DNA of 64,000 nucleotides from Picochlorum sp. 'celeri' (Eukaryota > Chlorophyta > Trebouxiophyceae), in assembly GCA_010909725.1 (NCBI GenBank), contig JAACMV010000002.1:496001-560000 (forward strand), given 5' to 3'. The position numbers and the translations under genes were made by a program. This document shows, in pieces, positions 389-30,100 of the stretch (within the stretch, counting starts at the first letter, position 1; every line of letters begins with the position of its first letter). The notes below the pieces were generated by a model. That model searched no databases. It saw only the letters and a program-made list of their open reading frames with translations, and was not told the DNA's origin.

Positions 389-3300
389 ATGAAGGCGATA
401 TATCGTACTTCTAGTAGAATTTTATTGGATGAGAGAGTAGGATGGCACGTGGTTGGCCGAGTTGTAGAAGAGAGCTCTGTTTTCCAGAGGGCACGGCTTG
501 AAAAAACCTCATACTGGACTGGTGGTTTTAGACATGGACGAGGTTTCAGTTCTGAGAGTGATGGGAAGGGCTCTGGAGTAGGCAAAGTGTGGAGATTGTG
601 AGTATGCATGTGAATGCCCTGATCATTGCGAATGAATTGTTCATGACTCCAATGTGTGTGCAGTTTGACTGGAAAGGATGGGGAGGCTACCAAGGATGAG
701 GATGGTACAGCTGGTGTGGAGCACATCGACCATAGTGGGGTGGTAGAGTCGCATAATGGGGAGGCAGATCTTGTACCATCGTCTCCAGAGCAGCGGTATA
801 GAGAGGTGTTGTCAATTCCTGTGACCAAAAGACCATTGTTCCCTGGGGTGATCATGCCTGTGATGGTGAGGGACAATCGGGTCATTAAAGAGTTGGTCGA
901 TATTCGTAAACAAGGGTATGTCGGGCATTGTGGTAGACAAGGAAAAAAAATCGAAGGCGGTGTTTCGATGTCTCATGGTTTGGTCGTCTTGATTGTGCAG
1001 GGCACAAGCGTATGTTGGGGCATTTCTAAGCAAAGAGGCAGAGAATAATAATGGAGATGCAAATCACTCGAATGAAAATGCTAACCAAGATGATTTTATT
1101 ATTGGAGGAGAGGCGGCAGGGGATCAACAGCCGCTGGATCCAGACTCGTTGTACGATGTTGGGACATTTGCTCAGGTTCACACTGTTGTTCCTCATGAAG
1201 AGGGAGCACAGCTGTTGTTGTTAGGGCATAGGAGACTGCGAAAGACAGGTGTGTACGAGCTTGATCCTCTTCGGTTGTCAGTGGCGCACATGAAAGATGA
1301 ACCGTATGATCGGAATGATGACATGCTCAAAGCAACAACGATGGAATTGATTTCGACACTGAAAGAGCTGTTGCATATGCACCCTCTCTACAATGAACAG
1401 ATGAGGAACTTCATTCAGTTTGGGGCAGACTTTCATGATCCATCGAGGCTCGCAGATTTAGCGGCGAGTTTGACGAGTGGCGATGCACATGCACTGCAGC
1501 TCATCCTCGAGGAGGTGTCTGTTCCAGAAAGGATTGAGCAGTCACTCATCTTGTTGAGAAAGGAAGCAAATTTGGTTAAACTGCAGCAGGATATTGGAAA
1601 GAGAGTGGAGGAAAAAATATCAAAGGATCAACGACGGTACTTTTTGATGGAACAATTGAAAAGTATTAAAAAGGAGCTTGGCATTGAAAAGGATGATAAG
1701 ACAGCGCTGGTGCAAAAGTTTCGAGAAAGAATTGATCCCCGCAAGGAATCTATCCCTCAAGCAGCGATGAAGGTCATTGAAGAGGAAATCACGAAACTGG
1801 AGGCTCTCGAGCCAGCATCGTCCGAGTTTAGTGTCACGAGGAATTACCTGGATTGGTTGACAATTTTGCCCTGGGGCAAGTACAGTGATGAGAGATTGGA
1901 TGTACAGGCAGCAAGGGAAGTTCTAGATGAAGACCATTACGGTCTATCTGATGTGAAAGATCGAATTTTGGAATTTATCGCAGTTGGAAAATTGCGTGGG
2001 TCGACTCAGGGTAAAATTCTGTGCTTTGTTGGCCCGCCTGGTGTGGGGAAGACATCCATCGGAAAGTCAATTGCACGCTCCTTGGACCGAGCGTATTACC
2101 GATTTTCGGTCGGAGGACTCAGTGATGTTGCTGAAATTAAAGGTCATCGACGAACATATGTCGGAGCCATGCCTGGCAAGATGGTTCAATGCCTTAAAGC
2201 CACGTCAACATCCAATCCATTCGTCTTGATTGATGAAATCGACAAACTTGGAAGGGGCTACCAGGGCGACCCTGCATCGGCACTTCTCGAACTGCTCGAT
2301 CCTGAACAAAACTCCACATTCTTGGACCATTATCTTGACGTGCCTGTTGATTTATCGAAAGTGCTGTTTGTCTGTACAGCAAACCAGCTGGATACAATTC
2401 CAGGGCCATTGCTGGATAGGATGGAAGTCATCCAAGTCTCTGGATACACAGGCGACGAGAAGATCTCAATTGCCCGAACATACTTGGAGCCTCAAGCTTG
2501 TCTGGACGCTGGAATACCCAAAGGTGCGATACGTATGGACGATGAGGCCCTGAAGACACTTGTGGACGACTATGCAAGAGAAGCTGGAGTCCGAAGCCTT
2601 AAGAAACTCATTGAAAAAGTCTACCGCAAAGCAGCCTTCAAACTCGTGGACCAGAATCTCATTCAAGTACCTGAGAGAAAGAAACAGGAAGAGAGCGAAA
2701 GCAACAAAGACGAAGAGGAAGGCGAGCCACGTGATAAATCTCTCATCCCAGAATCCAACAATCCGACAAAGAGCTTGGAGGGCCAAGAGTTTGTGTACGA
2801 ATCCCCTCTCCTGACTGTCACAAAGACGGATCTCAACGACTATGTAGGCCATCCACCATATCCATCAGACAAAATTTACCAGAATGAGACCCCCTTGGGT
2901 GTTGTCACTGGTCTGGCATGGACTGCCTCTGGCGGAGCAACCCTCTACATTGAAGCTGCCAGCGTAGAAAAGGGAGAAGGCAAGGGCAGTTTACGGGCCA
3001 CTGGGCAATTAGGTGACGTCATGAAAGAGTCGACAACGATTGCACATACGTATGCACGAAGACTCTTGGAAGAGAAGGATGAATCAAATTCGTTCTTTTC
3101 AGATCACGCTCTCCACGTGCATGTCCCTGCTGGTGCCACACCAAAAGACGGGCCATCTGCTGGATGTGCCTTGGTCACTGCACTTCTCAGTCTTGCAATG
3201 AACAGACCAGTGAGACCTGATCTAGCTATGACTGGTGAGATAACGCTGACAGGAAAGGTTTTACCAATAGGAGGTGTCAAGGAGAAAGCCCTCGCAGCAA

Positions 3301-3449
3301 AGAGATCCGAGATTAAGCACATTGTCTTCCCTGAAGGCAATAAGAGGGACTGGGAAGAACTGACAGATGATGTCAAACAAGGCCTAGAGCCCCACTTCGT
3401 AACCGATTACGAAGAATTATTTAATATCGCATTTTTGACGTCGGATTGA
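389..3449 (+). CDS. LONP1: Mitochondrial Lon protease (AAA+ serine protease)
   Basis: ATP-dependent protease of the mitochondrial matrix that degrades misfolded and oxidised proteins. Exons are 389-597, 664-915 and 1001-3449; both introns (66 and 85 bp) are GT-AG with matching phase 2. The product is about 969 residues, the size of human LONP1. The first 45 residues are Arg-rich, end in a RGFSS-like presequence and contain few acids. The Lon N domain follows, then Walker [10 protein letters not shown] near residue 498, Walker [10 protein letters not shown], an acidic Lys/Glu insert, and the protease domain with Ser873 in GPSAG and Lys916 in GGVKEK, the Ser-Lys dyad at the 43-residue spacing of E. 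coli Lon. An in-frame ATG at 275 would add 38 residues; 389 is preferred because it puts the presequence at the N-terminus. The stop is only 12 bp from the next ATG. Confidence 0.95.
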
Positions 3450-3461
3450 TTCATGTAACAC

Positions 3462-4328
3462 ATGTTTCGAATGCAAAACCACCTCGGAGGTCCGCGGGGA
3501 ATTCTGTCGCCTTCCCCCAATATGATTGGACCAAAATCACGTATAAAATTATCTAGGCGAATTAGATCATACGATGGGGACTTGCCTGAATGGTTCATGT
3601 ACGTTTCGCCACGCATGGCATGTCACATGCCGCATGAATGCACTTCTTTTTGTATTGGTGGCTTTTTATGATCTTCTATCCCATTTTTATGCAGAAATTT
3701 GAAAGAGTTGGCAAAAGACGACGATGAATTAGCGGCATTGCTCATGGAAAGTCAGGGCGACCCTTCCAAACTGGAAGCCAAGCTCAAGGCTGAAATGGAT
3801 AGTTTGCACAATCGTCTGGTCGGAGAGAGTGGAGGTAGTGGGGAAGAGATGCCTCCTAGGATACACATCAGAGATATTGATCCTTTTGATACGTGGATTT
3901 GGATGGAGTTGTACACCCCTCCAACAGGAGGTGCCGGGGAAATGCTCCAGGAAGTTGTAAACTCTTGGTTCATGCTCGGACGACTGGGTGCATTCGATTC
4001 GTCCAACCTCCAAATACTGTATTCGGAGGGAATAACATCAGATCTACAGTATGATGAAGATCAGCAAGAGAGCACCTTTTCCCTGCAATCGACAATGCAT
4101 GAGATGGGAGAATTGGAGTTTCGTGGTCCATGGGCAAGGTTTTGGGTGGATATGGGCACCTCGGACGAGCTTGCATTCGACATTCTATTAAACGCATTGA
4201 AAACATTTAGCAAAGAGCATGTAGGACTGCGACAAATAGTAATTGGTGGGGAGAATGATGATTGGCCAATTCCAGAAAAAAGCAGTGGATATGATGTGTC
4301 CATGGATCCCACGGGGGAGATACTGTAA
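3462..4328 (+). CDS. DUF3531 family plastid protein
   Basis: Exons 3462-3598 and 3695-4328 join across a 96-bp intron (donor GTACGT, phase 2) to give 256 residues. From about residue 110 the protein matches my memory of the DUF3531 family of cyanobacteria and plant plastids: an FDTWIWMELYTPP segment, then EMLQEVVNSWFMLGRLGAF, then FWVDMGTSDELAFDILLNAL. The family's function is unknown. The N-terminal exon is basic and Ser/Pro-rich with no hydrophobic signal, fitting a plant-type plastid transit peptide. Its ATG lies 12 bp after the Lon stop, so the promoter must sit inside Lon or the two are co-transcribed. The stop TAA lies within TGTAA, a possible algal poly(A) signal. The convergent gene's stop is 2 bp away. 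Confidence 0.8.
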
Positions 4329-4330
4329 AT

Positions 4331-5218
4331 TTACAAGAGTGTATTCACTTCATTCAATAATTCTTTCGCCTCCAATATGGCAGCATCGATGTCGGGATTC
4401 CCTGCTGATCGCGATGATATAGCCCTCTGTTCAATCCTTTGTGACAAGCTTTGACCAGCCTCCCTCACATTCAGCTTGAGCATACCAGTCTTTGAGTCAT
4501 CGGTATTCGACTTTAACGCCTCAATACTCGTTCTCAACGATGACACAGACATCTCGATATCCACCAACTCTGCAGCCGCCTGTCCTTGCGCTGTGCGAGC
4601 TGCCGTGACTGGAGTCATTTCAAACTCCTCTTCCTCCTCCACCACCACCACCCCATTCCCATTCGAATACACGTCTTCATCCACACTGGTTGTAATCGTC
4701 CATGTAGCCAACGGTTTATTTCTATTTGAAGTCACAGCATCATCGCTACGTCCACGTGCCACCTGCCTTGGGGTTAATAACAACTCCCTTAGGGGCTCTG
4801 GCAACGAACCCTGTACTTCCTGTGGAATACTGTTCGTCAGGGTCTCAATCACACCATTCTCAACCCCAACACCCTTCTCCACAAATTCAAGAATCCTATC
4901 TTCTACTTCCATGAGTATCTCCTTCTGCTTCCCTTCCATCGGCATGGCCTCGTCCGATAAAATTTTGTTCACCCGTTCCACATCCTGAGGTATCTTCTGA
5001 AGAGCCTCGCCTGTCGATAATAGAACTCCAACTGCCACACGAGGACCAAATGATAGAAAATCTAATGGGCTGGATGTCACAATCGGTCCCAGGCGGTCCC
5101 CTGGTTCGGTATCACGTGACATGGATCGGATAACAAAGTGACCTCTCCTGTGCTGTGCTGCGCCACCCAATCCCTTCCCGACAGCATTTTGAAATCTTTG
5201 TTGATACGTCTTCATCAT
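4331..5218 (-). CDS. Unknown protein, possibly plastid-targeted
   Basis: Single-exon frame of 295 residues starting at two consecutive ATGs. The first 35 residues are basic and poor in acids, like an organelle transit peptide. A middle segment (FGPRVAVGVLLSTGEALQKI) is followed by helical, acidic stretches and a run of Glu near residue 205. The C-terminal third looks coiled-coil-like. I do not recognise a domain. The 172 bp between this start and the next gene's start (5391, opposite strand) is a likely shared promoter. The coding call rests on length and composition. Confidence 0.6.
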   Translation of the reverse strand: MMKTYQQRFQNAVGKGLGGAAQHRRGHFVIRSMSRDTEPGDRLGPIVTSSPLDFLSFGPRVAVGVLLSTGEALQKIPQDVERVNKILSDEAMPMEGKQKEILMEVEDRILEFVEKGVGVENGVIETLTNSIPQEVQGSLPEPLRELLLTPRQVARGRSDDAVTSNRNKPLATWTITTSVDEDVYSNGNGVVVVEEEEEFEMTPVTAARTAQGQAAAELVDIEMSVSSLRTSIEALKSNTDDSKTGMLKLNVREAGQSLSQRIEQRAISSRSAGNPDIDAAILEAKELLNEVNTLL

Positions 5219-5390
5219 TGTGTTATATAATGGGACTGGTATGGATCGTCTGGATCTAATCTACGCAGAATGCCCGCGTGCTCTTTCGTCCTTTTTACGG
5301 AGAAAGAATGATGTTTCATTGGTACTTTAAAATTCTCTCCAGTATCGACGAATCTCACAGTTGAGATTTCATGAAATATATTCAGGGAGT

Positions 5391-5624
5391 ATGAATTCAG
5401 CAGCCAAGGCCAGTGGTGGCTATCGAACAACAGCATACCGTGTCAAAGTTCTTGTGGGTGTTGTCTGTGGAATGGTTATTGCTGGTTTGCCTTTGATGAA
5501 TAAGACTGTGTATGAGCGGGAGCAGAATGTGCATCGAATGAGGGATGATCAGTATGATCAGAAGGATGCTGCGCGGAATGCACGACTTAGCAGGGGGGGA
5601 GGATCCACATCCAAAGGGATGTAA
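5391..5624 (+). CDS. Small single-pass membrane protein, unknown
   Basis: Seventy-seven residues from the first ATG of the frame. One hydrophobic segment (VLVGVVCGMVIAGLPLM, about residues 19-35) is followed by a charged, Arg/Asp-rich helix. This layout is shared by small mitochondrial or plastid inner-membrane assembly factors, but I cannot match it to one. The overall shape resembles PET117-type proteins, though the sequence does not convince me. It is divergent from the unknown plastid-type gene at 4331-5218. Confidence 0.5.
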   Translation: MNSAAKASGGYRTTAYRVKVLVGVVCGMVIAGLPLMNKTVYEREQNVHRMRDDQYDQKDAARNARLSRGGGSTSKGM

Positions 5625-5757
5625 TAATAATAATAACAACCTTCCAGCAGCAGAGTAGCACTCTGTTGCATGCATGACCATGTATTTATTGTCGGCCCAA
5701 CCACCATTTAGCATGTAGTATGTAAATATCAAAGACAATACATATTCCTCCCAAGGA

Positions 5758-6020
5758 CTATACATTCATCAGAATGCTGTCAATGCATTCAACCGCCGCG
5801 ACGCATAGGAATGGAAAGCAAGATCCAACTCTATTTTTTGGTGACACCTGCTTCTGCAGAGGCATTTCAGAAAACGTTTCATATGTATCATTCAAAATCT
5901 TGGATGGCAGATATGCAATATCACGCCATGATAGTCCAAATGCCAACCTGAAAGCGACCAAACTTTCATCCATCCTCTCTGTCACAAAAATGCACTCCTT
6001 ATCAGTTAAAGGTTGTGTGC
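5758..6020 (-). pseudogene. Sulfotransferase-like fragment
   Basis: On the minus strand, an acceptor-like ctcag at 6021-6025 is followed by an open frame of about 86 codons ending at TAG 5758-5760. Its core (KECIFVTERMDESLVAFRL, then GLSWRDIAYLP) resembles the segment of Golgi galactose-3-O-sulfotransferase-type proteins that reads roughly 'D-L-V-x-x-T-E-x-F-D-E-S-L-V-L-L ... W'. No 5'-phosphosulfate-binding loop or further exon was found in the 280 bp up to the next gene, and the frame lacks an early ATG except an internal one at 5973. It is most likely a decayed copy or a stray exon. The similarity is from memory. Confidence 0.4.
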
Positions 6021-6304
6021 CTGAGCAGCAGGACAGGGAACTGTGTTGTTGCTTGTAGACAACACAAAGGATGAAGGCAGCTCTGTGTTTAACCTTACAT
6101 GAGAATTCTTATTCATTCGAATTGGGTAACGTCACGCAATCTCATGGTACTCACAGTAAACAATATACAGAAAGGATTTCTCAAGCCAGCGTGGATACAT
6201 TCCAAACCTTATGTATGGCCTGTTATCCTTCTATAGAAGGATGCAATCCACAGCTGGGTCTCATATGACCACCAATACATTAGTAATAACAATACATTGC
6301 CTCA

Positions 6305-6877
6305 CTATAAGAGCTCTTCAGAGATACCTGCTCGTTTTAATAGCTTACGAGCTCGCTCTAGTTTCTTCTTTTCCTTTTTTCGCTTCTCTCGTGCCATCTT
6401 TTTTCTCAACTGAACTCTCTCCGACTCACTCATCATGGCTATTTCATACGCCTCCTGCTCCTCTTCTTCATCTTTAAACTGATTCACTACAAATTCATGC
6501 TGCTCAAATGAATCCTGCTGGGACGACGCCTTCACGCCTTCTATGACATGCTGGATAAACCCACGTTGACTCGTGCCAATGCCAGAAGACACTGCAGAAA
6601 TCTTTGCACCTGTATTCGCTTCATCTGATGTCACTGTAGTATCCGTCTTCTTCAAAGCATCCCCTGTATACCCAGGTGGCTTCTGATACAGAAATTTCAC
6701 CGCATTCTTCCCATCCTGTACACCACACTCACCCCGTTCCTTCTGCTCAGCCTTGTACTCTTCTTGCCGCTGCTCAATCTTCTTCAACCGCTCCTTTTCC
6801 TCCTGTTCCGCAGTCCAAACTTTTTTTCTGTTTCGATAAGACCCAGGATGCCATGGTTTTTTATTCAAAAAATCCAT
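6305..6877 (-). CDS. Cir_N domain protein, CWC25/CIR-like splicing factor
   Basis: Single exon, 190 residues. The N-terminus starts FLNKKPWHPGSYRNRKKVW and continues with TAEQEEKERLKKIEQRQ, which is the Cir_N domain found in the spliceosomal step factor Cwc25 and in the CBF1-interacting corepressor CIR. A KFLYQKPPGY block near residue 62 fits the same group. The rest is charged and helical, ending in a Lys/Arg/Glu-rich coiled coil. The expected role is nuclear, in pre-mRNA splicing; the exact orthologue is not certain. It is divergent from the RING gene across 351 bp. Confidence 0.75.
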   Translation of the reverse strand: MDFLNKKPWHPGSYRNRKKVWTAEQEEKERLKKIEQRQEEYKAEQKERGECGVQDGKNAVKFLYQKPPGYTGDALKKTDTTVTSDEANTGAKISAVSSGIGTSQRGFIQHVIEGVKASSQQDSFEQHEFVVNQFKDEEEEQEAYEIAMMSESERVQLRKKMAREKRKKEKKKLERARKLLKRAGISEELL

Positions 6878-7228
6878 GGCGAAAAGGTCCTAGAAAGTAC
6901 ATGCAGTGCAACAAACACCTGCTGCGGGGACTGCGTCTGTCTCCATTTGACATACGTATCAGGTGGATGAAAATGTATTTTACATCATCAGTGTTAGTGT
7001 TCTGGAAAGCATATTCTGGGGATGTAGCTAACATGACCCAGTGGGTCTGCAGACATGACTGTGTTTTTATTTATTAAGACAACCCATGACCCGGTCATGC
7101 CTTCTGGTACGCATTTCCAGCCATAGTATCAGCATATCGAAAACTACAATTTAATTGAGTAATGCAGGATAGTAGCAGCGTGAATCCTCTCAGGATCACC
7201 GTCTGAGGAAAAGGAAGGAGTTGGAACC
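6878..7228. other. Divergent intergenic region
   Basis: It separates the starts of the Cir_N gene (minus) and the RING gene (plus) and must hold both promoters. I see no TATA box I would defend, no RNA gene and no further coding frame. Confidence 0.4.
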
Positions 7229-10057
7229 ATGTACACGACGCTCTTGGAATACAGTAGCAGGTTTTCAGGGGTGGCCCGGTTGGCCATGAGATGGAAAGAG
7301 AGTATTCAAACCATGCTTCTTAGTCTCCTGGGTCTCTCTAGTGTGTATAGTATGTGGAGTATGGGGCTGTCGCCTTCGAGTTGGGTTGTCGTTTCTTTGA
7401 ATATGTGGTGCGCGTGCTTGGTTCTCCGAGGTATGGATTCATTGTATATTTGTCTTCTATTGGTGAATAGAGACTCATGCTTGGATGGTTTGGGTTGCAG
7501 GGTGGACGCGGATGGACCTATGGGAGAAGAGAATTTTCCTTTGGTCCATGATTAGCATTTTATCTTTTGTACACTTTCTGCTTATGGATTCGGATTTCAA
7601 AGGATGGGAGTCTGTATATTACTTTTGTGGAAAAGATATGGAATACTGTACGACGAGTTATCGGTGGAATTTGACGGGATGGCGGAAAGCCATGTCTCTA
7701 TGGAATTTCACCTTGTCGAGTGCGCTGGGCGCACAACGACTGTTGATAGAGGCTGGTTTCGGTGGACTCTTGCCCGGAGAGGAGGCTATCCCCCGAGAGT
7801 GCTTTGTTTCTATTGTGTGGAGGCTTGTGCCGTTTTGGTTGAACAAGTGGGAGAGTAATTTTGGGGCAGAGTGCTCTTCCATTCTGTTCGAGTTGCCACA
7901 TTTTGCCCTAGAGTTGTTGATTATTCTGCCAATGGTGCAGATTATGGCAGGGAGGATGAGGGTATTGGCGAATCCTCAGATGAGAGCGCCTCATGTGGTG
8001 CAGCGAGGGGAAGATTTGGATAATATTGTTCCAGATGTTATGCAGTGCACATGGGTTGTGGATGCATCGCAGCAATGTTTTTGGTCACGGTTGAGGAAAA
8101 ACAGATGGCCGCTTGTCCTGATTTCGGGCATTACGATTCGTACGTTGATGTAGTATATATGAATGTATATATGTTTTGGGGGGATAACCAAAGTGATGTG
8201 GGTGATGTAGTTGCTGGAGCGAATGCGTTATGCATGCCGTTGTACTTGGAACACACAGCAATTCGTGCAGTCCAATCGAAAGGGTTTGTGGAGTATGAAG
8301 CAGAGCTGGCGCATGTTTGGGATGTGAAAGGGAACTTTTCATATGGAGAGTTGTTTAGAAATGAATCCTCGGCTGATATGTTGGTTCTGCATGACAATAC
8401 AACGATGCATTCGTGTGTGGTGGATGGGGATGATTCTTGTGGCACGCATGTCCAGAGGGGCGTTGTGACGTGGATGATGGAGGAGGGTATGGTGCAGTAT
8501 AATGACTCGACGCATCTGGTATCATTGAATACATCGGGTTTGACATTACATCCTACTTGGGCTGTGGGGGCAATAGAAGCCTCTGTGAAGAATGAGAGCA
8601 CTGTGAGCTCGGACAGACTTGCTCATGTCATTTTTGGAGGACGGTTTGCGAACCTGACGTCGAAAGGCGATGGATCTTTTGTCAGCTTACAGCAAGAGTA
8701 TATGGAGAAAGTTCACAAAAATACATATACTCATGGAAGCAATTATATTGTGGACTTTTTCATGGGAAAACCTCCCAAAGATGCACTCAAATTTTATAGT
8801 ATTGCTCTCAAGCATGCACGAGAGCTCAACAGAATGGCGTCAGCTGAGCATAAGAACTTGGTGCCTTTAATCGAAGGCGCCTTGGCAATTATGCGTTTAT
8901 CGTGTGAGCGCTGGTTTTCTTTGCTGGCTGTATTTGTTAGCTTCATTATATTTAGAGATCCACCTCCTCATGTGAGGGAGTACATTAGGTTTATAGCAAC
9001 AACTTGTAGAGTGTTCCAGCAGACAATATTAATGACCTTCCCAGCGGTGTGCTGGGGATATGGAGCTGGTTTCGTATTTTCTTCTTTTGCTAGTGTTGTT
9101 TTCTGGGCAGGCCCAACGATTCGATTGATAGAACGGATCAAAAAGGTGGCCACAGAGGTTCAGCCAATGCACTGGCACCCAGCCACGGTGGAAGAGATAG
9201 AACGAATGGGTGAGAATTGTGCAATATGTTGGGGCGACATCGCAACCCAGATAGCAGGTGAAGAAACAGAAGAAGACTCCCATGCTATGGGGTTAACGTG
9301 TGGTCATGCATATCATAGAAAGTGCTTGCTTGAATGGCTTCATTCCTGTTATGGTCAATCACGGTCAGCCACCTGCCCCATGTGCCAGGCCCAGGTGCCA
9401 CTTCACGTGAAATACAAATTTGAATTTCCATTTCGAAGTGATGCAGCTCCAGATGAAGGAAATAACAATGCTGTGCGAAACAGGAGGCAAGAGGGAATTC
9501 CTGGACTCGTCGCATTAGCAGGTCAAATGCCAGAGGAATTTGTTGGCCGCTTTGAGGTTCCAGTCGGGCACATGGCATTCATGGATGAGGTCAGAGAAGA
9601 AGAGGAAGAGGAAGAGGAAGATATACCACAGCAGCATCATGCTGTGATGGAAGCTAGCACCTCTGGTGGATATTCAGACGATGGTGGTGCCAACAGGAAC
9701 GACATGGCAGAGCAGCCAAATAGATTCTACTTTAGATTTGATCACAGGCCTCCCCCCTCTGCTGTAGAGAGCTCTGTGGTACATGACTTGCCTGGAACGT
9801 CAGGAATGCAACCCAGTGCTGAGGCTCTTATTATTGATGACCAACAGCAGACATCATCATCAATACATCTTCCGGATCAAGAAGAGACTACTGCAGCAGA
9901 CAAGGCCCCCATAGATATAGACGATGATGTAGTGAGTGATCCTTCACCTCAACAGGAAGACGATCAGCAACACCTAGAACAGAATAATAATGCAAATAAA
10001 CGGCGCCTGCAGGGTATCTATGCTCGCTTGCGACCACGAAGAAACAGAAACACGTGA
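7229..10057 (+). CDS. Multi-pass membrane RING-H2 E3 ubiquitin ligase
   Basis: Exons 7229-7430, 7501-8139 and 8211-10057 (introns 70 and 71 bp, both phase 1) give 895 residues. The N-terminal third has several hydrophobic segments. A soluble part with N-glycosylation sites follows, then two or three more hydrophobic segments near residues 515-585. The RING-H2 finger (CAICWGDI..., CGHAYHRKC, then CPMC; about residues 616-670) faces the cytosol by this topology. The tail is acidic and disordered. The layout suggests an ER or Golgi ubiquitin ligase; I cannot assign it to TRC8, Hrd1 or Tul1 types. The second intron was placed by joining two overlapping frames at a GTACGT donor. Confidence 0.75.
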
Positions 10058-10105
10058 TCTCACATGTAAACAGATTACATTCCACTACAAGAGCAAATAT
10101 AATTT

Positions 10106-10857
10106 TCATACATTCTGAGCTTGCTGTGGAGGCACATATGCCCCATCATCATTATCCTGACCACCAGCTTGCTGTCGCTGCTGCTCCTCATACTGCCTCT
10201 TTGCTTCCTCCCACTTGTCCGGACAACAGCATCGGAACAAGATATTGAATGGAATGCAAATCAACCACATCACAAGTCCAAGAACCAAAGCAATCAACAA
10301 CAATGGAATCATCAAAAGCAACAGGATTACAGCAACAATTTGACCCACGACCTTGATGCCAAGAATCTTCTCCAACCATGCTGGCAAACGCACTGGATGC
10401 GCAGCCATTTTGGCCTCCCATTCAGCATACGTCATTCCCTCGGAATCAGCACCTTGACCCTTGGCCAAATCGTCAATGTATGCATCATACAATCTCTTCT
10501 TCAAAGGGTTGGTCAACGTATCCTTTGCCTGATTCAGTGTTGCAGAAGCAAGACCAGCATCCGGATGATTACACTTGTCAGGATGCACCAATCTACTCAG
10601 TCTGAGATAATTATGTTTAATTTCAGATTCATCCGCATCTTGAGTGACCTGCAAGGCCAAAGAATTCCAGAGATCAGTCAAGAACAGTTGCCCGGAATTC
10701 AAAATGACACATTTTCTGGCACAGATCTGCTATATGTTATAAACAGTACCTTTAAACAGATGTAGTAATTCGTTTTATGGGCGACGATGCGTTCAACTTC
10801 TTCCTGAGGAGTTTTGAAAACAGCATCTCTCCCAACCTGGGAGACGGATCGCTGCAT
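10106..10857 (-). CDS. Membrane-anchored J-domain protein
   Basis: Exons 10750-10857 and 10106-10648, intron 101 bp, phase 0, 216 residues. Splicing builds a J domain (about residues 30-100) with NYYICLK joined to VTQDADESEIKHNYLRLS and the Hsp70-stimulating HPD motif in LVHPDKCNHPDA. A long hydrophobic stretch (about residues 145-185) could form one or two membrane helices, followed by CCC and a Gln-rich tail. The role would be recruitment of an Hsp70 to a membrane. It is convergent with the RING gene, 48 bp apart. Confidence 0.85.
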
Positions 10858-16300: not shown

Positions 16301-17017
16301 TTCATTTTCTGATCTAATACGTCCGTGGTGTTTCAATGAATGGACTGCTCTTTTCGATAGGAGATGGTGCTGCGTTGCATGTCGGATTGAACAACAATGC
16401 CTCCCATGCAGCTCCTGCAATCTCCTGTTTTGGTGAGCATACTGTCCATTCTATCAATATATATCAAAATTCAAAACTATTAATTTCATGTAATCAATGA
16501 AAGCATTGTTCTCGTGACGATCGTTGGAAAGAGATCAGGGGCCTCGTCGGTACTGGTGGCGCCCTCAGATGGCTTCCCTTGCAATTGCAATTGCAATTTC
16601 CGTTGCAACGGAAAGACAATTGTCTCTTACTCTCGTGATACAACGCGGACGTATGGATCCCAAATCTTGCTTGTATCCTTTCCAACCCTAACCTTTTGCT
16701 CAAATGTCTGTGTTCAGATCACTGATTGTCATGAAAAGTATCATTAATGATCCAATAATCATCAATCACCAATATTGGTGTCCATCCATGTACAGAATCA
16801 ATGGGAAGAGGATTACAAATACCAAGCCACGTGGCATCCGAATTCCTTCTCGAGTGTAGAATAATCGTTTCTTTAGAAATCACACATCATTTTCTGGCTA
16901 TTTAATTCTAATCGCGTCCGATAGATGACTCAATAGCTTATTATTATCATTCGGTAGGCTGGCACGACACTCGTATCATAGGTGTTAGTGTGCTTTTCTG
17001 CATTAACAAAAGAAAAC
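16301..17017. other. Divergent intergenic region with palindrome cluster
   Basis: It lies between the poly-Pro gene (minus) and the S41 gene (plus). No gene was recognised. Three consecutive perfect palindromes lie at 16579-16596 (ttgcaattgcaattgcaa), 16597-16614 (tttccgttgcaacggaaa) and 16614-16625 (agacaattgtct). They are good candidates for bidirectional transcription-factor sites or a structured element. Confidence 0.5.
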
Positions 17018-19480
17018 ATGAGACAAGCCGGAATCTTTTTCTTCTTTTTGGGATTTATATGCCTCCTGACGCAATCAGGTGCGGCTGCAGAGTCGTGCTT
17101 TGGACCCGCGGCGTTCAAACCATACGCGTTGCTGCGGTCCCTACAGGCAGCAAGGGACTGCTACGAGAAAGTCGCTCTGGATGCAAACAACACAATTCAA
17201 AACATCCAGTCCCTTCTTGGCACAATGCGTAACTATTATGCATTCTATAATTATGCTGTGGACGCTCCAGACTCGACTCCTGCGAACAACCCAGAGAACT
17301 GGGTTATCTACAATGGCACAGAAAATGGGCAAGTCGACCTCAGGCTGAAAGAGGAGGAGTTGGTGGCACAGGTGCAGCAGAATGGAGCAAATCTGTTGAC
17401 ATTGCTGGATTTGGCAACAGTCATCAATTCACCCAGGGATATGCACATTTCATCAGTATTGTCCTTCCTCAACAATGCAGTGATTCAAAACTACATCAAC
17501 ATTGTTGATATGGAGGAATTTGAGCAAATTAAAAATGGCACGTCCCTTCCAGGAAGATATCTCACTCTCTCTGAGACTGATGGGGTAGTGTCCGTGGTGA
17601 TCAAGTCAAGCGAGACTGAGCAGGTGGTCAAAGTGATTGATACGGTGGATGGTGTTGACGCTTTGGAGTATTTGAAGTCATTTGTCTCCATGGCAGGCTT
17701 ATCAATTAACAATATTCCTTCATACAAGGCACTGGGTTCAAGAATGCAGAGTTTTCTGCAACAAGCGGGACTCAAGAATACTGCCCCAATCATTGCTGGT
17801 TTTCCTTCCATAGGGTCTGCAATCAACAATCTCCCAGATTCTGTACAAGTTGAATACAGTGATGGATCTTCCACGGTGTGGCAATTTTTATTCTATCCTG
17901 GAAAAGACGCCAACGGTCAAGAGTTTGTTGATTACAGTGTGGATGAGCTGATTGCATACGCCAATGCTGAGCCAGAGAATAGCCCCTATACATTATTCAA
18001 CGATGCCCTCTTGCAGGCCTCAGAAGTGAGATCAATTTCGGATAATCCAAAAGCATCTGCACAGCGGCAACAGTGGGAGAGTACTCAAGATATCGCTTCG
18101 ATCGATACTGAAACAAATACTCCGCTCAACTGGACATTTTTCAAAAAGGATGATGGGAGTATTTTGTTTGCTCTGGCGGCTGTTGGGGATGCAACAGTGC
18201 TGAAATTCCAAGGGTTCAGTTTGGATATGAGTCGCTCTCCTGTCCCAGATGTGGAAGAATTATGCTCCTATATGTTTGAATTTTCGGAGAAGAACAATAG
18301 TACAAAGCTCCTTATTGACTTGACGGATAATTTGGGTGGCAATGTTGACCAGACATTTGCCATGGCTCAGTGTTTGTATCCTCAGGCAACCTATGAAGAT
18401 TTGTACCTTCCATATACACTTCGATGGTCTGATTATCTCGCAGAAAAGTCTCGAATTACGAGTAACGCCCGCGGCTTGAACAACTTCATTCTCTCAGATC
18501 AGGACAATGTGTTTGATGTCTCACAATTGCTCAGCAACAATATTGATGCAGCATTGCTCATGTTACAAAGGATGAGGAATGATCTCAAAGCCATGTTGGC
18601 TCTTCAAATATCTGGAAATCTGGAGGATAAGATCCAAACCCTGACATTCATGATTGATGATGTGAAGAAGACAAAGCACTTTAGATCTTCTTTTGTCAGG
18701 AGACTCTTACAAATGCCAGATTTCTCAACGTCATTCCGAGGCCCATCTCAAATCGGTGGTTTCTCTCTCAATGGAAATTTTGAAATGGATACTGTAGTAC
18801 AAGGTGGAATTGAGACGGACATTTTCACGGGTTGGACTCTGTTGAAGCCAGAATATTTTGTTCAAGGGCAAACTGCATTCCGCAGGTTGAAAAACCCTTT
18901 CAAATCGTACGCAGTCATTGGCAATGGCTTGGGAGGAAGTAGCTCTGCTCTGTTAGAAATGAATTTGGTTCAGATATCGATGATGAACCCGTCGTGGACC
19001 CCTGCGACGTCATGGACATATGGGTGTGTTGGAGAGAAGCAAACATGCCCCGTCAATCAGTTTCAGGGAGGCTATATTGGAGGAGCTTCACAATACAACA
19101 CAATGCTCTACGGTGACATTGGCATTCTTGTATTCCTTCGAGATTTTTACGCGACTATACTCGCTCTTGGAGGACCCGAGATCCCCAGTGACATATTCGA
19201 GACTGTGACTGAGTTTGTTGATGCCACTGACAAGTACATTCCGACCGTTCCGGAACCACCCATTGGTGCAACGAATGGATTTTACGGATGGACATTTACC
19301 GTGTATTCTGTCATGTCTAGGATTACGGGGTTCAAGAGCATTCCCATGGAGTACTTTGAGGTACCTCCCACACATTACATTCCTTTCTGGCCTGATTGGG
19401 CCAAGGCTGGGTTTGGACCAAACCAATACAACAGTACAGAGCTTGCACAAATATACACTCAAGTCTCAAATGGAGTATAA
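17018..19480 (+). CDS. Secreted S41-like (tail-specific) protease homologue
   Basis: Single exon, 820 residues from the ATG that starts a signal peptide (AGIFFFFLGFICLLTQSG). The family features are the strand-loop LLIDLTDNLGGN near residue 431 and VIGNGLGGSSSALLEMN near residue 634. These match the Asp/Asn-rich 'DLRGNGGG' loop and the nucleophile Ser region of fungal-type S41 peptidases. Many Asn-X-Ser/Thr sites support secretion. The loop reads Asn-Leu-Gly-Gly instead of Asn-Gly-Gly-Gly, and I cannot pick out the general-base Lys, so catalytic competence is open. It may act as a secreted protease or as an inactive relative. The next gene is on the same strand 733 bp away. Confidence 0.65.
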   Translation: MRQAGIFFFFLGFICLLTQSGAAAESCFGPAAFKPYALLRSLQAARDCYEKVALDANNTIQNIQSLLGTMRNYYAFYNYAVDAPDSTPANNPENWVIYNGTENGQVDLRLKEEELVAQVQQNGANLLTLLDLATVINSPRDMHISSVLSFLNNAVIQNYINIVDMEEFEQIKNGTSLPGRYLTLSETDGVVSVVIKSSETEQVVKVIDTVDGVDALEYLKSFVSMAGLSINNIPSYKALGSRMQSFLQQAGLKNTAPIIAGFPSIGSAINNLPDSVQVEYSDGSSTVWQFLFYPGKDANGQEFVDYSVDELIAYANAEPENSPYTLFNDALLQASEVRSISDNPKASAQRQQWESTQDIASIDTETNTPLNWTFFKKDDGSILFALAAVGDATVLKFQGFSLDMSRSPVPDVEELCSYMFEFSEKNNSTKLLIDLTDNLGGNVDQTFAMAQCLYPQATYEDLYLPYTLRWSDYLAEKSRITSNARGLNNFILSDQDNVFDVSQLLSNNIDAALLMLQRMRNDLKAMLALQISGNLEDKIQTLTFMIDDVKKTKHFRSSFVRRLLQMPDFSTSFRGPSQIGGFSLNGNFEMDTVVQGGIETDIFTGWTLLKPEYFVQGQTAFRRLKNPFKSYAVIGNGLGGSSSALLEMNLVQISMMNPSWTPATSWTYGCVGEKQTCPVNQFQGGYIGGASQYNTMLYGDIGILVFLRDFYATILALGGPEIPSDIFETVTEFVDATDKYIPTVPEPPIGATNGFYGWTFTVYSVMSRITGFKSIPMEYFEVPPTHYIPFWPDWAKAGFGPNQYNSTELAQIYTQVSNGV

Positions 19481-20213
19481 TAATGCAACTAGATAAGAAT
19501 GGATTGCCTTGATCAAAGTCTCAAGTTCGTACGCATCTGTCTGCCTGAGCACATTCATTCCATAATTCCCTTTAATCAACTTGGTAATTATTCTCATATT
19601 CAGAAGAATATTCTTCACTCATGAATGACTTGGGAGCACGAAACAAATTACTACCTCTTTTGGAATATTGTAGATGGACATTGTCCAGATGTACATCCAC
19701 CCACATTGATGTTACAAACTCATGGAAGTGGAGGTCCATCTGCATTCCTGTGCTACACATGTGGGCGGGTGCTCTTGTCGGTAGAGGTCCATTTGCATGT
19801 TCCAACCCGCGGAATGCCAATACAGGAGATATCAAAGGCTACCACCGCTTGTAGATTACCTCAAAAGTAGATGAAGCCGTACATGAGAAGGCAGAAACAA
19901 ACAAACATCTGGATGGATCCATCCGTCCGTCCGGATATATATCCTCGATCGAGCCTCGAGCTCGCGCGAGCCCCCTGTCAATTGGCAGCGGTGGTCATGA
20001 CCACATTACGTAAAATCTGTGTAACCAATGCTCCCATCCAACAGCCATGTATTCTGAATTGATATAGTACATTGTATTTGATGCAGTAGAAATCGAAACC
20101 TAAAACAGTAGTAGTAGTAGTTGAACCGAGTCCTTGTTGGACAACTGTGGTGCTCCCAGGGGTCTCGAGCATATTTGGGTTTCAGTGGGTATAGTAGTAA
20201 TATCAACAACAAT
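19481..20213. other. Intergenic region upstream of the glucan synthase
   Basis: No gene was recognised; short open frames on both strands (19572-19835 minus, 19621-19870 plus) overlap each other and carry no known motif. A near-repeat of about 20 bases occurs twice (ggaggtccatctgcattcc near 19732 and agaggtccatttgcatgttcc near 19785). Nearer the gene lie perfect palindromes gtggtcatgaccac (19991-20004) and ttacgtaa (20006-20013), plausible promoter elements. Confidence 0.4.
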
Positions 20214-23200
20214 ATGCGAGATATTGACCTTTCTCTAGACATACGAATTATGAGGATGGTGGCATGGGTTGTGATGGTGCTATCCATGGTTGAGGTTGCC
20301 ACAGGGTACAGTACCAACCCTAGTGTCAACTCTTGGCGACAGGCTACGATTTACGAAATTATGACGGATCGATTCAATAATCCATCAGGAGAGATCTCAT
20401 GTGCAAATCCGAATCAGTACTGTGGCGGGACGTTCAAAGGTATACAGGACAAGATTGGTTACTTGAAAAAATTGAATATGCGGTCTGTATGGATTACACC
20501 GCAGTTTACAAATACTCCGGAAGGGTACCATGGGTACTGGCCATTGAATCTCTTTCAAGTGAATCCGAATTTCGGAATGCATCAGGATATGCAGGACTTG
20601 TTGGATAGTCTGAATTCAGGAGGCTTGTTCAGCATGCTTGATGTTGTGTTGAATCACATGGGATATGGGAGTGCATATCCTTCGTTTAATTACTATTTCA
20701 ACCCATTCAATCAAGAGAGTCAATTTCATTCGTGTGATGGGTGTCTTCCTGATTGCTCTGTACCTAGTTCGGTTCCTGCAGATCCGAATAATGGGAGTTC
20801 TTCCTTTTGGCCACTCATGTGGAAATGTCGGCTGGCTCAGTTGCCTGATATCAATCATACAGCTGATGGAGTTGTTGCGGATTATTTGAATTGGTTGGAT
20901 TATATAAAAAGCGAGTTCTCTTTTGATGGTTTCCGATATGATGCTATTCCTTACATTGAACCAGAGTTTTTGACGACGTTTGCTCGGAATGGACAAGTGT
21001 TTGGGCTTGGTGAGATCCTAATGCCTGGCGTTCCTGAGGGCCAATACAGATTGAGCGAGTTTTACATGAAATATGGGACGACCATGATATCTGATCGTCC
21101 AGATAATCCGGCTGGTTCGTACTCTCAGCTGGATCAGATGCAAGCACTTGCATTGAGACAGTGCTATGGTGGGGAGATTGTGATTCCAGGGGCTGGGTGT
21201 CGTTTTTTGTCATATGTGAGAGGAAATTATTCTGCCTTGGGGTTGGATCAGAAGCTTATGGGTCGATATCTTGATTCCGCGGATTTGCCTCGATTTTTGA
21301 CGATTTATAATAATACAGTCAACCTGCAAAGTGCATTGGCGGTTTTGTTTCTATCTATCCCCTCGGGGAGGGGATCCCAGTCATTTGGCAAGGGACAGAG
21401 CAAGGGATGGGGGCTGAGCCAAGTGAGTATGAAAATGGTAGAGATCCCATGTGGATAGTGAGTGATTTTGAAACTGGTGGGGAGTTGTTCGTGTATATCA
21501 GAATGCTCAACTATTACCGGAACAGCTTGAATCTGTTTGATGAAGATTTGAAGGAATTGTGGGTGGATGAAACTACATATGGGTTCATGATGGGTCCGGT
21601 GTTTGCAATCTTGCCCAATGGAAATGCAACGGTGGAGAATTATGAAATCAGTGGTCTTACAATGAATAAAGAGTATTGCCAGCTTGCTGTGGTACCTGAT
21701 GCAGACACAATGTGTTTGACCACGGATGATCAAGGCCGTGCTACCATTCGTGGTTATTCGTACGGAGAGCCACAGTTGCCATTGATTTTTGTGTACTCAG
21801 AGCATGCAAAGCCTTATCAGGTCTTTCTTCCGTACGAATACTGGTCGATTTTGTGGGTAGAGGGTCTGCTTGTTTCGTTATTGCTGCTTCCGGTTGCATG
21901 GGTAATTGGCCGCTTGTTTGTCCGGTATTATCCGCACAGAGGGAAACTTTGGTGGGAATTAAGGACCAAAACTGCTTTGAAGCATCTGAATATTTTCAAG
22001 TCAAAGGTATACAAGAATATGATTAGTGTTCAGGGCATGGTTGAAATGTTTGATCCGAGTGTGGAGCAGATGTCTGCAAGGCAGCAGAGTGCAGAATTGG
22101 GCAAGAATGCAACGCTTTCACAATCTACAACTCAGGAAATTATTCACAGTAAACTAGAGCAGCATCAGGAGCCGGGATTTTTAGCATCGCTCAATCGCCT
22201 GGGTGGGTCCAAATTGATTTCAAAGTATTCAAAGGCCTTCCTGCATGATCCAACTTTGGTCTGGCATCTTGCTTTAGAATATAGCATCCCTCATCTTGGA
22301 TTGCACAATAATCTAAAATTTGGAGGCTTGGGACAGGTAGTGGGTATGTTTGCAGAGTTTACAACAAAGCCACTGGTTGTCTGTGCACCAATGTATTCTC
22401 CTTTTTATGATGAGGATGGAAATCTGAAACACGATGTCCTGGGTGCAACTGGAGAATTTGTTACAAGGTTACCCATTAGAATGCAGGGTGGTGAGGATGC
22501 TGCTGTTAATGTGTACATAGCAGCGCCTGATGTGGACGAGCCTACTGTTTTCTACATCCTCCTAGACTGTTACGAAATCTTTGGTTGGAGAACAAAAGGG
22601 GAGATTTATACATTTGGCTCAGAGGCAGATCAATTACGATATTTTGCTGTGTATGGTCAATGTCTTGCAGCTTTGATTGGTATGTTTGATGTCAGATGTG
22701 TGCAGTTGCATGATAATCATGCTGGAATATTTTTAGAGTATATCAAGCCATCTCTCAGACCTACTGCCCTCATAACGCTTCACAATGCTGATTATAATAC
22801 AAAGTTTCCTCTAGGAACCAAGGAGAGAAATAAGTACGTGTATTCGTGCCTTGGTTTGAGTAGCATGGACCAGACAACACGGGATGAATGTGAGCATCTT
22901 GGGAACTTTGATTTTCTCTACTTGCTTGTCAAACATGTCACACAATACCAGGGTGGCCATGGATTTGTAGCCGTGTCGCCAAGATATGCAGAGCGTTGCT
23001 ACATCAAGTTTTCGAGATTTTGGCCAATACACTCGGAAAAAATGATTGGAGTACTCAACGGTTTCAAGGATGGAGACAGAGTCTTTGAGAAACCTGACAA
23101 CATGGATTCATTGTTTGACGCCAAGAAACTTGCAAAAGAAAACCTTCAAAAAAGACTCGATCTGGAAGTGGATGATGATAAGAAGGTTATGGCATTTTTT

Positions 23201-25111
23201 GGACGTGTGACATATCAAAAAGGCTGTGATCTTGTTGCAAAGGCCACGCCACAGATTTTGAAAATGCACTCCAATGCTCAAATCATCATAGCAGGTCCTA
23301 TAGGTGATTCAAATGGAGTGCAAACAGAAGATATGATGGCAAAATTGGAGACTGAATTTCCGGGTAGAGTAGCCAACCTTGTTGGTCAGTATGTTTCAGG
23401 AAAAGAGAAGGAGGAACTCATCCTTGCAACTGACTTTTTCTTCTGTCCATCGCGCTTTGAACCATGTGGACTTGCAGACATAGAGATGGGCCATGCCGGA
23501 GCAATTCAGATAGGTCATAATACAGGAGGTTTGAATAAGATGCCAGGATTCTATTTTGAGGCAGAATTGGACAATGACCAGACTCTGGTTCATCAGCTTG
23601 AACAATCTTGTCTTGAGGCACTATCACAGCCTAACCAAGTGCTTCGAGATTTAGCTGAGCAGGCTATCAACAAATCCTTCCCTCCTGAAATCATGGTCAC
23701 AGCGTATGATGAAGAATGGAAGAAATTGAACACGAGTCGCAAGGTGTCTAATGCAGTCTTCAAGAGATCCCTCAGCTTTGATTATGAGCAGAACACGGAT
23801 GAGATGAAATTTTATGGTGAATGGTGGTCTTTGGAGAATTCAACTGCAGTCGAGAATGCTCCAGAGCCATCATGGAATGTTGTTAGGGCATTTTGGGCAA
23901 ACATTCTGCTCATAATTTGCCAGTCTCTTTATAGGTTTCCTTCTCTTTTGTGCTTGATCTGGATCCAGTTTGCCGTACCTGCTGGCCAATCAACGCTTTT
24001 GATCACCAATGACCGTAACGAAATGCCAGTGTTTGTTGATCTGTTCTTAATACAATTGGGCATTACGTTTTTTGCTGCGCCAATATGGCAAATGATTGCC
24101 AGTTGCATGAGTCCCAGGCGATACATTATTCTTGCCTCTTGCCTAAATATTCTTTCCTGGTATTGTTCGCTTTGGTCATTTTGGGCACCAGCAGCCATGA
24201 ATGTTTTGTTCATCATCTCTTCAGTCCTTGGCACTAGCCCAGTACCGTTCATAGGCTTTATCAATTTGGATGTGGAGAGCAAGGTTTCGATAGCCTCCCA
24301 GGGGGTCAAGCTGATGGCTCTTTCTGATTGCTTCTGGTATTTAATGCTTGTTGTGGTATATTCTCGAGAGGCCGCAGGGGTATATCTTCACAGAAATACA
24401 CTAATTATAATTGGATGCATATTTTTAGTCGCATCCGTGTGGCTGACTGAGTTTTTTAGGCATCCCAGGACTCTGCCACCTCATTTTTCTTTCAAGAGGC
24501 TCCGCTATTTTGGGCAATTCACTGTACTCCTTAAGCAAAGAAAGACATGGTTGTATTTCTCACTACTAACATTTTTTGATTCATACATATTCACAGTATT
24601 GCTAGGATGTATCTTGGAATACTTGGGAGACAACACTGATTATGTCAGAGGAGCATATATGGGTTTAGTTGGCACAACAGCTTTGTATTCTGTTGTAGCC
24701 GCGATCCTGATTTCGTCTCGCTTTGGAGGTACATTGAGCATCAAACTGTACTATATTATCCTGATAGGTCCCTGTATGGGTCTCATGCAGGCAGCTCTCA
24801 TTGTATATTGCCCAGATTGGGCAGCCATTGTGGCAGCAACTGTCATTAATGTTCTCTCGGTGCGTTATTCCATTAAAGGACTCCTCAGTTTGCACACGAT
24901 GCCCTCGAGAGAAATATTTTTATCTGTCACGACCTTGCAAGTGATGGTGGGCTCGATAGCTGTAACTGTGGGGGCTATTACAAATTGGAAGCTACAGTAT
25001 AATGAACAATGGCTATGGATGACAGTGATAGCAATTGCTGAGGGTTTGAGACTGTTGACGTGTATTCCTTTCATACGGTGTCACGCCAAGGAGAACCTGG
25101 CGAGACCATAG
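20214..25111 (+). CDS. Alpha-1,3-glucan synthase-like enzyme (GH13 + GT5 + multi-TM), frame broken once
   Basis: About 1,632 residues. The signal peptide (MVAWVVMVLSMVEVATG) is followed by an extracellular GH13 amylase-like domain with DVVLNH (143), nucleophile Asp243 in GFRYDAI, acid Glu267 in GLGEIL and Asp357 in SADLPRF. One transmembrane helix follows (about 542-570), then a cytosolic GT5 starch/glycogen-synthase-like domain with KFGGLGQVVG (about 700) and the donor-site FEPCGLADIEMG (about 1081). The C-terminus has about 10-12 membrane helices (1229-1630). This is the order of fungal Ags1/Mok1, which make wall alpha-1,3-glucan: GT5 polymerises from a nucleotide-glucose, the C-terminus probably exports, and the outer GH13 joins chains. 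The frame changes by -1 (or +2) at 21357-21373, between ALAVLFLS and GIPVIWQGTEQG, which are consecutive in GH13. No intron can explain it without losing the strand. The remaining 1,200 codons are intact. Confidence 0.85.
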
Positions 25112-27118: not shown

Positions 27119-30100
27119 TCATGGTGGTGGTAATGGTAGTGTTGCGTATGGAGATGGAGATGCTAGGGATGGAGTATTGGAAGGGCATGTTCCCCATTGT
27201 GGTTGGATGCACGTATCATTTTCAAACGCTGCCCCATAGTCAAATCTGTTAGGCTTGCTCGCTATCTTTGTCACGCACCAGTTTGAGATGTCTTGATTGA
27301 ATACAGTTGCACCGGAAAACATGGAGTCCATGCTTGCCACAAGTCCAGTATCCCACTTTGAGCCAGATCTGGCTAATGGCTGGTTCCCATTGTTGAACTG
27401 AAAAGCGCTGAAAAACATTTGATCCATTGAGGTGACCGAAGACGTGTCCCAAGAACTTATGTCCTGATCAAATGAGGTGGCGTAGCCAAACATCAAACCC
27501 ATATCAGTCACTGCAGATGTGTCCCATACCCCAATCGGCTGATTGAAGGCAAAAGCTGCTGCAAACATCCCGGAGGTATCATTGACTGATGACATGACCC
27601 AGCTGGAAATATCCTGATCAAATGAGTCGGCAAATGCAAACATGCCTGACATGCTTTTCACATTTGCTGTGTTCCAAGAGCTTAGTTTGCCATTGAAAGC
27701 ACTTGGTGGACTAAATGTACCAGAGAACATTCCCGTCATTGAAGTGACTTGCGATGTATCCCACTTATCTAGATCCTGGTTGAACTTTAGGGCCAAAGCA
27801 AACATGTTGGACATGTCCTTCACTGACCCAGTTTGCCATGAACTGATGTCTCTGTTGAACACAAGAGCCTCTTGAAACATGCCACCCATGTCTTCAACTG
27901 CAGCTGTGTTCCATGTATTGATAGGTTGATCAAAGGCTTCTGCCTTTTTTAGCATTTTTTTCATTGACGTTACTTTGCTTGTATCCCATACGGGTCCAGA
28001 TGTGGCAAGAGGTTTGTTGAAGACAGAAGCCCCTTCAAACATGCTACCCATATCAGTGACTTTGCTTGTATCGAATCTGATTTCCTGATTGAAAGCTTTT
28101 GCATTGTTGAACATGTACTTCATATTTGTCACAGAACCAGTATTCCATCCAGATGTGGACGTTGCAAGCGGCTGGCCACCATTATTGAACACTGCTGCTT
28201 CTCCAAACATTTCACGCATTGATATTACTGAACTTGTATCCCATGAGCCGATGTCCTGGTCAAACGATTCTGCTCCGAAGAACATGCCGGCCATGTTTTG
28301 TACTTGACTGGTGTTCCAGTTTCCAACCGGCACATTGAAGGCAGATGCAACACCAAACATGTCAAGCATGGTTGTTACAGAGGATGTGTCCCAACTTGAT
28401 CCAACTGTTTCCATGGGTTGTCCACCGTTATTAAACGCATACGCTTCGTAGAACATGGTGTTCATGTTTTGTACCGATGCTGTATTCCACTTGCTGATGT
28501 CCTGGTTAAAAGACGCTGCCCCTACAAACATCTCCTCCATGGTTGTCACAGAACCAGTATTCCATTCCCCAATCGGTTGGTTGAAATCACTGACAAACTG
28601 GGGCGCGTCTCCCAAGTATCCTTGAAACATTCCCTTCATTGTTGTGACCGATCCTGTGTCCCATGTAGCGATATTTTCATTAAAGGTCTCGAGATCAGCA
28701 AAGAGATTAGACATGTCAGTTACTCCAGACGTGCAAGTTGTTGGTAGTTGACTCCACATTGTAGAATCTGCTACCAGAGCTCTCAGTTGACTTTCTGATC
28801 TTTTCGTGTACAAAGTCCCACCGACCCAGCCAGAAGAACCGATGGGTGCTCGAGGGCAGAGGACAGTCACTTGGTTGGGACCTAGATAGAAAAGTGGTGC
28901 AGGAACTGGAACTGGCATTGGCTGAGGAGATGGCTGAGGAGAAGGGAGTGGAGATATTTGTGGCAGCGGCTGGGGAGAAGGCTGCGGAGATGGCTGAGGA
29001 GAAGATTCAGGCTCTGGGGCAGGCTCTGGGGCATCTGGTACAGGCATCGGTGTGGAAGTCTCCAGCACGTCCTCCACCAAAACATTCTCTCCAAGAACCT
29101 GTGATGTTGACTCTCCTGATCCCGTGAGAAAGTCTGTCAACGTATTTGCCGCCAAATTCGCACTGTCAAGTTGATTATTGTCATCAACAGCAAAAACTAC
29201 TTGCACAAAAGCTCTAATTGTGGGATTGACTCCTCCCTGCCTGTTGACGACAGGAATTACCCTGGCAACTGTACAAGACGTCAGAGAAGGATCATATCCT
29301 GAAATCATCACCAGGTCCTTACAAAGCTGCTCCCTCTTTTCCTGGTCAAACGACTGAACTGTTTCATTGGAAATACCAAGCCTGACCTCGACCTCAGGGA
29401 CCTCCACCAGAGTTGAACTCGGAGGAACCAAGTCGTATCGTCTCAAAAACTTCCATCTAGTCGCCGTATTGACAGTGGGAAAGTATCCACCTTCGCCCTC
29501 CACCAGCACAGGCTGACTCTGACAGTTTTTCACTGCCAAAACATGACGACAAATTTCTGGTTTGTTTGCCGCAGTCATCTCAAAAGTAGAAGTACTGCTG
29601 TCGCCTCCATCCTTGACCTTCCACATTTGGGTACTATCCACACCAGCACCCTGTGAGGAGTTCAGAAACAAGTCTCCAGCATGTGATGAAACAAGACACG
29701 TGCCCTTGTATGACGGGTTCTCATAAAAGTTGCTGACAAACCCAAGACAACGCGTGTATTCTGCATAGTCGGGAGGAACAAAAGCTTGCAATGAAACTCT
29801 CTTCTCATTGTCACCGCCCTCCACCCTCAACAACCATTCACGCCACATCATGGAAGCACTCTGACCTGTCCTCATCACAGGACCAGCAGTTTTTGCCATT
29901 GATACCGCCTCCGAGCAACTTCGATTGTTAAACCCCAGAAACTCTGCGGCATCATGATATACCAATCTTTCAGTGATACAGAAACAACAACCATTGCCAC
30001 CAATGCACGCAGGACGCACCTCGACCAAGGTCACATTCGGGCCTGACCGAGGCCAACTCAATCGAGTACACTCCGTCACGGACATATCGTAACGAGTCCA

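Follow-up and report, generated by a model that had tools for sequence, protein, structure and literature searches.

A trebouxiophyte membrane protein with the domain plan of fungal alpha-glucan synthases, interrupted in both assembled alleles of Picochlorum celeri

Fungal alpha-1,3-glucan synthases (Ags1/Mok1) are about 2400 amino acids (aa) long. Their published domain order runs from a signal through an outer alpha-amylase-like domain, one helix and an inner glycosyltransferase (GT) to a multispanning C-terminus; a proposal made for fission yeast assigns chain synthesis to the inner domain, extrusion to the multispanning one and the coupling of chains to the outer amylase-like one (both PMC3502345). 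Starch synthases of the algae covered in PMC3797821, which lie outside the Trebouxiophyceae, are placed in GT5. None of the open-licence papers listed (in one case the first 12 of 9,966) deals, by title or abstract start, with an Ags-like enzyme in green algae, and PMC11126685, which has Elliptochloris bilobata and Symbiochloris irregularis among its newly sequenced genomes, mentions neither GT5 nor GH13 in its main text. The gene considered here occupies positions 20214-25111 (+) of a 64,000-nucleotide (nt) stretch of Picochlorum sp. 'celeri' (P. celeri) DNA, called the window below (C2:496001-560000, where C2 is contig JAACMV010000002.1); coordinates without a contig label are window positions. 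Its domain order, as the initial annotation had claimed, is that of the published fungal plan (PMC3502345). The gene probably belongs to an old family of trebouxiophyte membrane enzymes for alpha-glucan synthesis that follow this plan; the architecture is real and uncommon, and it is not that of an ordinary starch synthase.

The closest protein to the window gene is the orthologue of Picochlorum sp. BPE23 (P0001; 98%), an uninterrupted chain of 1614 aa that holds all parts in one open frame and serves here as the reference for frame and residue comparison. By hydropathy, P0001 has a hydrophobic segment at its N-terminus, a single one at 525-554 and, at 1213-1603, a C-terminal series of 11, two of which overlap; this bears out the single helix between GH13 and GT and the multispanning C-terminus that had been predicted. 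The single segment corresponds to 21839..21928 (+) in the window and recurs at the matching GH13-GT place in P0002, P0009, P0011, P0013 and P0031 by the same measure. The algal protein, with a putative signal at its N-terminus, has the same five-part order as Ags1/Mok1 and differs from them in its green algal host, in its length of about 1600 aa and, in the Picochlorum line, in the replacement of a GH13 histidine by Ala.

The GH13 part is matched by Pfam Alpha-amylase in the window open reading frame (ORF; E 1.3e-31), in P0001 (2.5e-37) and altogether in nine of the 13 family members. Its best solved-structure matches are alpha-amylases of the Taka-amylase kind (6sav, 2aaa, 2guy, 2taa). Alignment to solved alpha-amylases and established GH13 knowledge assign the nucleophile Asp (GFRYDA) to 20940-20942 and the acid/base Glu (FGLGEI) to 21012-21014; the third acid, Asp, is kept at 21282-21284 (all +; D229, E253 and D343 in P0001 numbering). 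In region IV, Ala (21279-21281, +) stands at the usual His position. This Ala is common to P0001, P0002 and the window, whereas seven of the nine A1 rows with an aligned GH13 column have His (P0014 set aside). Taka-amylase-kind enzymes (6sau, 2guy) share with it the three acids as well as sequence across the greater part of the domain; the Picochlorum GH13 differs from them in the region-IV Ala, in being membrane-tethered and in its fusion to a GT.

The inner part has the predicted fold of a GT5-type GT-B domain and is matched by Pfam Glycos_transf_1 (E 4e-13). Both Glu of its E-x7-E pair (SRFEPCGLADIE; 23459..23485, +) are present in 13 of 13 aligned relatives. This pair and the three GH13 acids are all in place, as first annotated. 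The C-terminus has a predicted major facilitator superfamily (MFS) fold; no MFS family is among its Pfam matches at E<=1, and it differs from the MFS transporters VMAT2, Spns1, NorA and G6PT in an identity of only about 10% and in its fusion to a glycosyltransferase. The Foldseek and VIA-align matches listed include no Ags structure, which is no evidence of a difference.

The GT half, P0001 and an alignment served as queries for relatives of the same layout, or of its parts, in a search that requires shared five-letter words. Such relatives were found in Micractinium tetrahymenae (two), M. conductrix, Chlorella ohadii, E. bilobata and S. irregularis. Fungal Ags is not among the matches listed, the alignment search having been swamped by alpha-amylases (best 120 of 624). 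A bacterial source of the GT was also considered: bacterial stretches, GlgA-like by similarity, have 24-38% identity to the GT part (best 80 of 570); in one of them (L083) the match extends into the GH13 part. The maximum likelihood GT tree comprised 18 family rows, five of the six Glyco_transf_5 loci of the genome itself and 17 of the 80 bacterial loci; the sixth own locus (C8:262-264 kb) and 63 bacterial loci were left out. All 18 family rows fall on one side of a 100/100 branch, and the own and bacterial loci on the other. The GT therefore does not group with the plastid starch synthases sampled, in agreement with the initial annotation. It differs from these enzymes and from bacterial GlgA also in its fusion to a GH13 and an MFS-fold domain and in its TIGR02095 (GlgA) score, which at 118 of 328 bits misses the cut-off.

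The GH13 tree has 43 rows from 40 of 147 proteins, since three proteins were each divided into two rows; P0010 and P0015 were left out for their truncated GH13. The 11 family rows stand together (100/100). Both trees recover a Chlorella/Micractinium group and a group of Picochlorum plus relatives; Elliptochloris and Symbiochloris pair at 99/99 in the GT tree and weakly (89/47) in the GH13 tree. Since largely the same groups appear in both, vertical descent inside the Trebouxiophyceae fits these sequences, in a small sample. Three proteins from EukProt transcripts (P0033, P0034, P0035), each with a tandem double GH13, branch close to the algal synthases in this tree (94/80). A viral origin of the family was considered and rejected, as none of 17 IMG/VR pattern matches encodes a relative.

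Activity, orientation, export and product of the algal synthase we infer from the layout shared with the fungal scheme (PMC3502345). On the cytosolic side, the GT-B domain would extend an alpha-glucan with glucose taken from a nucleotide sugar. The MFS-fold domain would carry the chain, or its carrier, over the plasma membrane, and chains would be cut or joined outside by the GH13 domain. Judged by layout, the best guess for the linkage is alpha-1,3. A GT48 glucan synthase is encoded in the genome as well, so that an alpha-glucan would not be the sole candidate wall glucan.

Several observations weigh against membership in a family of active Ags-type synthases. The likeness to fungal Ags is drawn from layout. 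Pfam Glyco_transf_5 matches only two of 13 family members, and the window GT is not among the matches of the genome search with this model. The N-terminal segment is identified by hydropathy alone (P0001, P0002, P0009, P0011, P0031), and P0013 has none over the threshold; by the same measure P0010 has three segments before the GT and P0009 two extra weak ones within it. The His expected beside the third acid in an active amylase is missing from the window gene, and with this replacement by Ala the Picochlorum GH13 may be weak or altered. P0037 (jgi, 1712 aa), the deepest branch of the GT clade, outside the green algal group and of the same layout by hydropathy, has its GH13 outside the family group, near rows of the dinoflagellates Polarella and Alexandrium (92/87), and its C-terminus has no detectable similarity to the family C-terminus (no better than shuffles). 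From the placement of its GH13, the GH13-GT5-multispanning layout may occur in dinoflagellates. No GH71 alpha-1,3-glucanase was found in the genome, a result of no weight because the control was equally silent. Finally, the protein is perhaps not made in the P. celeri strain, since both assembled alleles are interrupted.

The assembly comprises 27,412,692 bases in 30 contigs, and the matches of Glyco_transf_5 and of the GT half are paired on partner contigs, so the assembly represents two haplotypes. The published P. celeri genome is likewise described as a phased diploid of 27.43 Mb (2x15 scaffolds, 46% GC), for which long reads alone were used in polishing (PMC7225527); window GC is 42-49% in 2-kb steps. 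On C2 the span of the gene is 4898 bases, no multiple of three. The ORF with GH13 (20121-21458, +) and that with the GT and many helices (21407-25111, +) differ in frame. By comparison with P0001, the GH13 half with its signal-like hydrophobic N-terminus and most of the presumably outer domain covers 20250..21350; the GT half, from the GH13 end through the membrane helix, the GT5-type domain and the MFS-fold C-terminus to the stop, covers 21362..25111. Between them lie 11 extra nt (21351..21361), where P0001 reads straight across (...ALAVLF-LGEGIP...). An intron was rejected in favour of a frameshift because the extra stretch is only 11 nt. On the sister contig C22, window 19600-21349 aligns to 491617-493376 and window 21357 onward to 504015 onward, so that the same break point holds a 10,638-base insert (C22:493377-504014; G000, L036, L017). 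Hence the one-chain layout of the initial annotation stands for the place of the domains, and as a single open chain it is found in BPE23 and in neither assembled allele of this genome. The frame break escaped the initial annotation, which could not have seen the broken sister allele.

Gene loss or splitting in P. celeri is one alternative. Both alleles would then be genuinely broken, and what remains would be a short secreted GH13 beside a separate GT-MFS protein, or no product. We regard this as a substantial possibility, somewhat short of an even one, and it is compatible with membership in a family of synthases, which concerns the family and not the strain. The coincidence of the frame break on C2 with the 10.64-kb insert on C22 speaks for it, as does the fact that both halves remain open on both haplotypes. 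Against it, dN/dS between the alleles is near 0.14-0.18 (GT half: dN 0.0057, dS 0.0418; GH13 half: dN 0.0128, dS 0.0718), and the GH13 half of the window differs from BPE23 at only 2 of 358 residues compared, against 11 for C22. In the GT half, the window has 21 and C22 15 differences over 1249 residues. The 3' end of the C22 insert is within edit distance 3 of the 11-mer, a closeness reached in 0.6% of random insert places and 8% of letter shuffles. Together with the low dN/dS, the two differences and the polishing by long reads only, this likeness points to an artefact on C2, which is quite possible: the 11-nt break may be genuine, or sister-allele sequence may have bled into a consensus made with long reads alone.

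Two independent breaks meeting by chance are unlikely, at roughly 7 in 4860 positions by a rough estimate from the coordinates. Laboratory editing is also disfavoured as the cause of the double break. Cas9 is in use in P. celeri (PMC12301381) and the break site lies three bases before a GGG, but after a fresh event the copy should be identical to its template, and the end pieces of the insert are imperfect copies of resident sequence: bases 1-429 match C2:1090290-1089862 at 98.1% identity and bases 9849-10638 match C2:1085527-1084757 at 96.8% (97-98% against both haplotypes).

The insert as a whole is a patchwork. Bases 419-736 match pieces of C18 and C14, and about 742-8902 is mostly a multicopy element with related copies at C3:886.8-894.4 kb, C18:266.7-275.1 kb and C14:279.6-287.6 kb, followed by a 635-bp piece resembling C2:788246-788880. 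The element carries an ORF of 901 aa with weak HNH_3 and helicase-associated matches, both under the Pfam cut-off. This frame is open in the C22 insert and in the three other copies (90% identity), and more distant relatives in the genome have 30-36%; the genome comparison of this ORF found no copy on C2, and the pattern search found no viral relative. Inverted repeats of about 360 bp, 88% identical, lie near the element ends (C22:494480-494833 and 501515-501876), with a further copy at C22:501203-501483, inside the HNH-like ORF in its 3' part. As a guess, a cut at the same sequence in both alleles, by the HNH-like enzyme or otherwise, could have hit both at the same point.

Alternatively, the protein could be an independent combination of a secreted-type amylase, a GT5 domain and an MFS exporter of another alpha-glucan, e.g. 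an alpha-1,4-glucan, that resembles Ags by convergence. The best matches of the GH13 part to Taka-amylase-kind enzymes are consistent with this, as is P0037, whose GT lies in the family clade but whose GH13 and C-terminal sequence do not go with the family; nor can layout, on which the comparison with fungal Ags is based, fix the linkage by itself. The same five-part order as in the published plan and a GT clade well apart from the GlgA-like and starch-synthase-like rows argue against it, and we consider this explanation rather unlikely.

Membership in the trebouxiophyte synthase family can also be extended into a fuller scenario, which we hold to be quite doubtful. Trebouxiophytes would have inherited a one-chain GT5-MFS-GH13 machine for a secreted Ags-like alpha-glucan so far uncounted among algal wall polymers. 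The P. celeri locus would be in the course of being knocked out, one allele by DNA that includes the multicopy HNH-endonuclease-like element, the other scarred at the same nucleotide through the same kind of cut.

Contamination from a fungus or another source is extremely improbable, and so is a recent fungal transfer; only the fungal-type layout speaks for either. The contig is 1.39 Mb long with an allelic partner, and the closest protein comes from another Picochlorum, which upholds the assignment to an algal host. Relatives occur in several Trebouxiophyceae, where the groupings of GH13 and GT largely agree, so that the gain by transfer raised in the initial annotation is not supported as a recent event.

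Among the neighbouring genes of the window, an ORF of 832 aa just upstream of the synthase (16982-19477, +) begins, judged by eye, with a hydrophobic stretch and matches nothing in Pfam at E<=0.001. The ORF at 27122-30085 (-; 988 aa) contains six stretches of DUF285, a Mycoplasma-type repeat (E 9.4e-151), which is unexpected in a green alga and marks a possible bacterial-type gene. Two glycosyltransferase-like genes lie 26-30 kb downstream: one with Nucleotid_trans (51369-52994, +) and an exostosin GT47 with EGF-like repeats (54636-55757, -).

P. celeri is transformable (PMC12301381), and therefore the gene is directly testable. A polymer synthase with a fused MFS fold would offer a concrete export route to test, also for fungal Ags. 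If the product is confirmed, an exported alpha-glucan machine would be common to green algae and fungi, and this would matter for the toughness of the walls of production strains and for the encounters of symbiotic trebouxiophytes with their partners.
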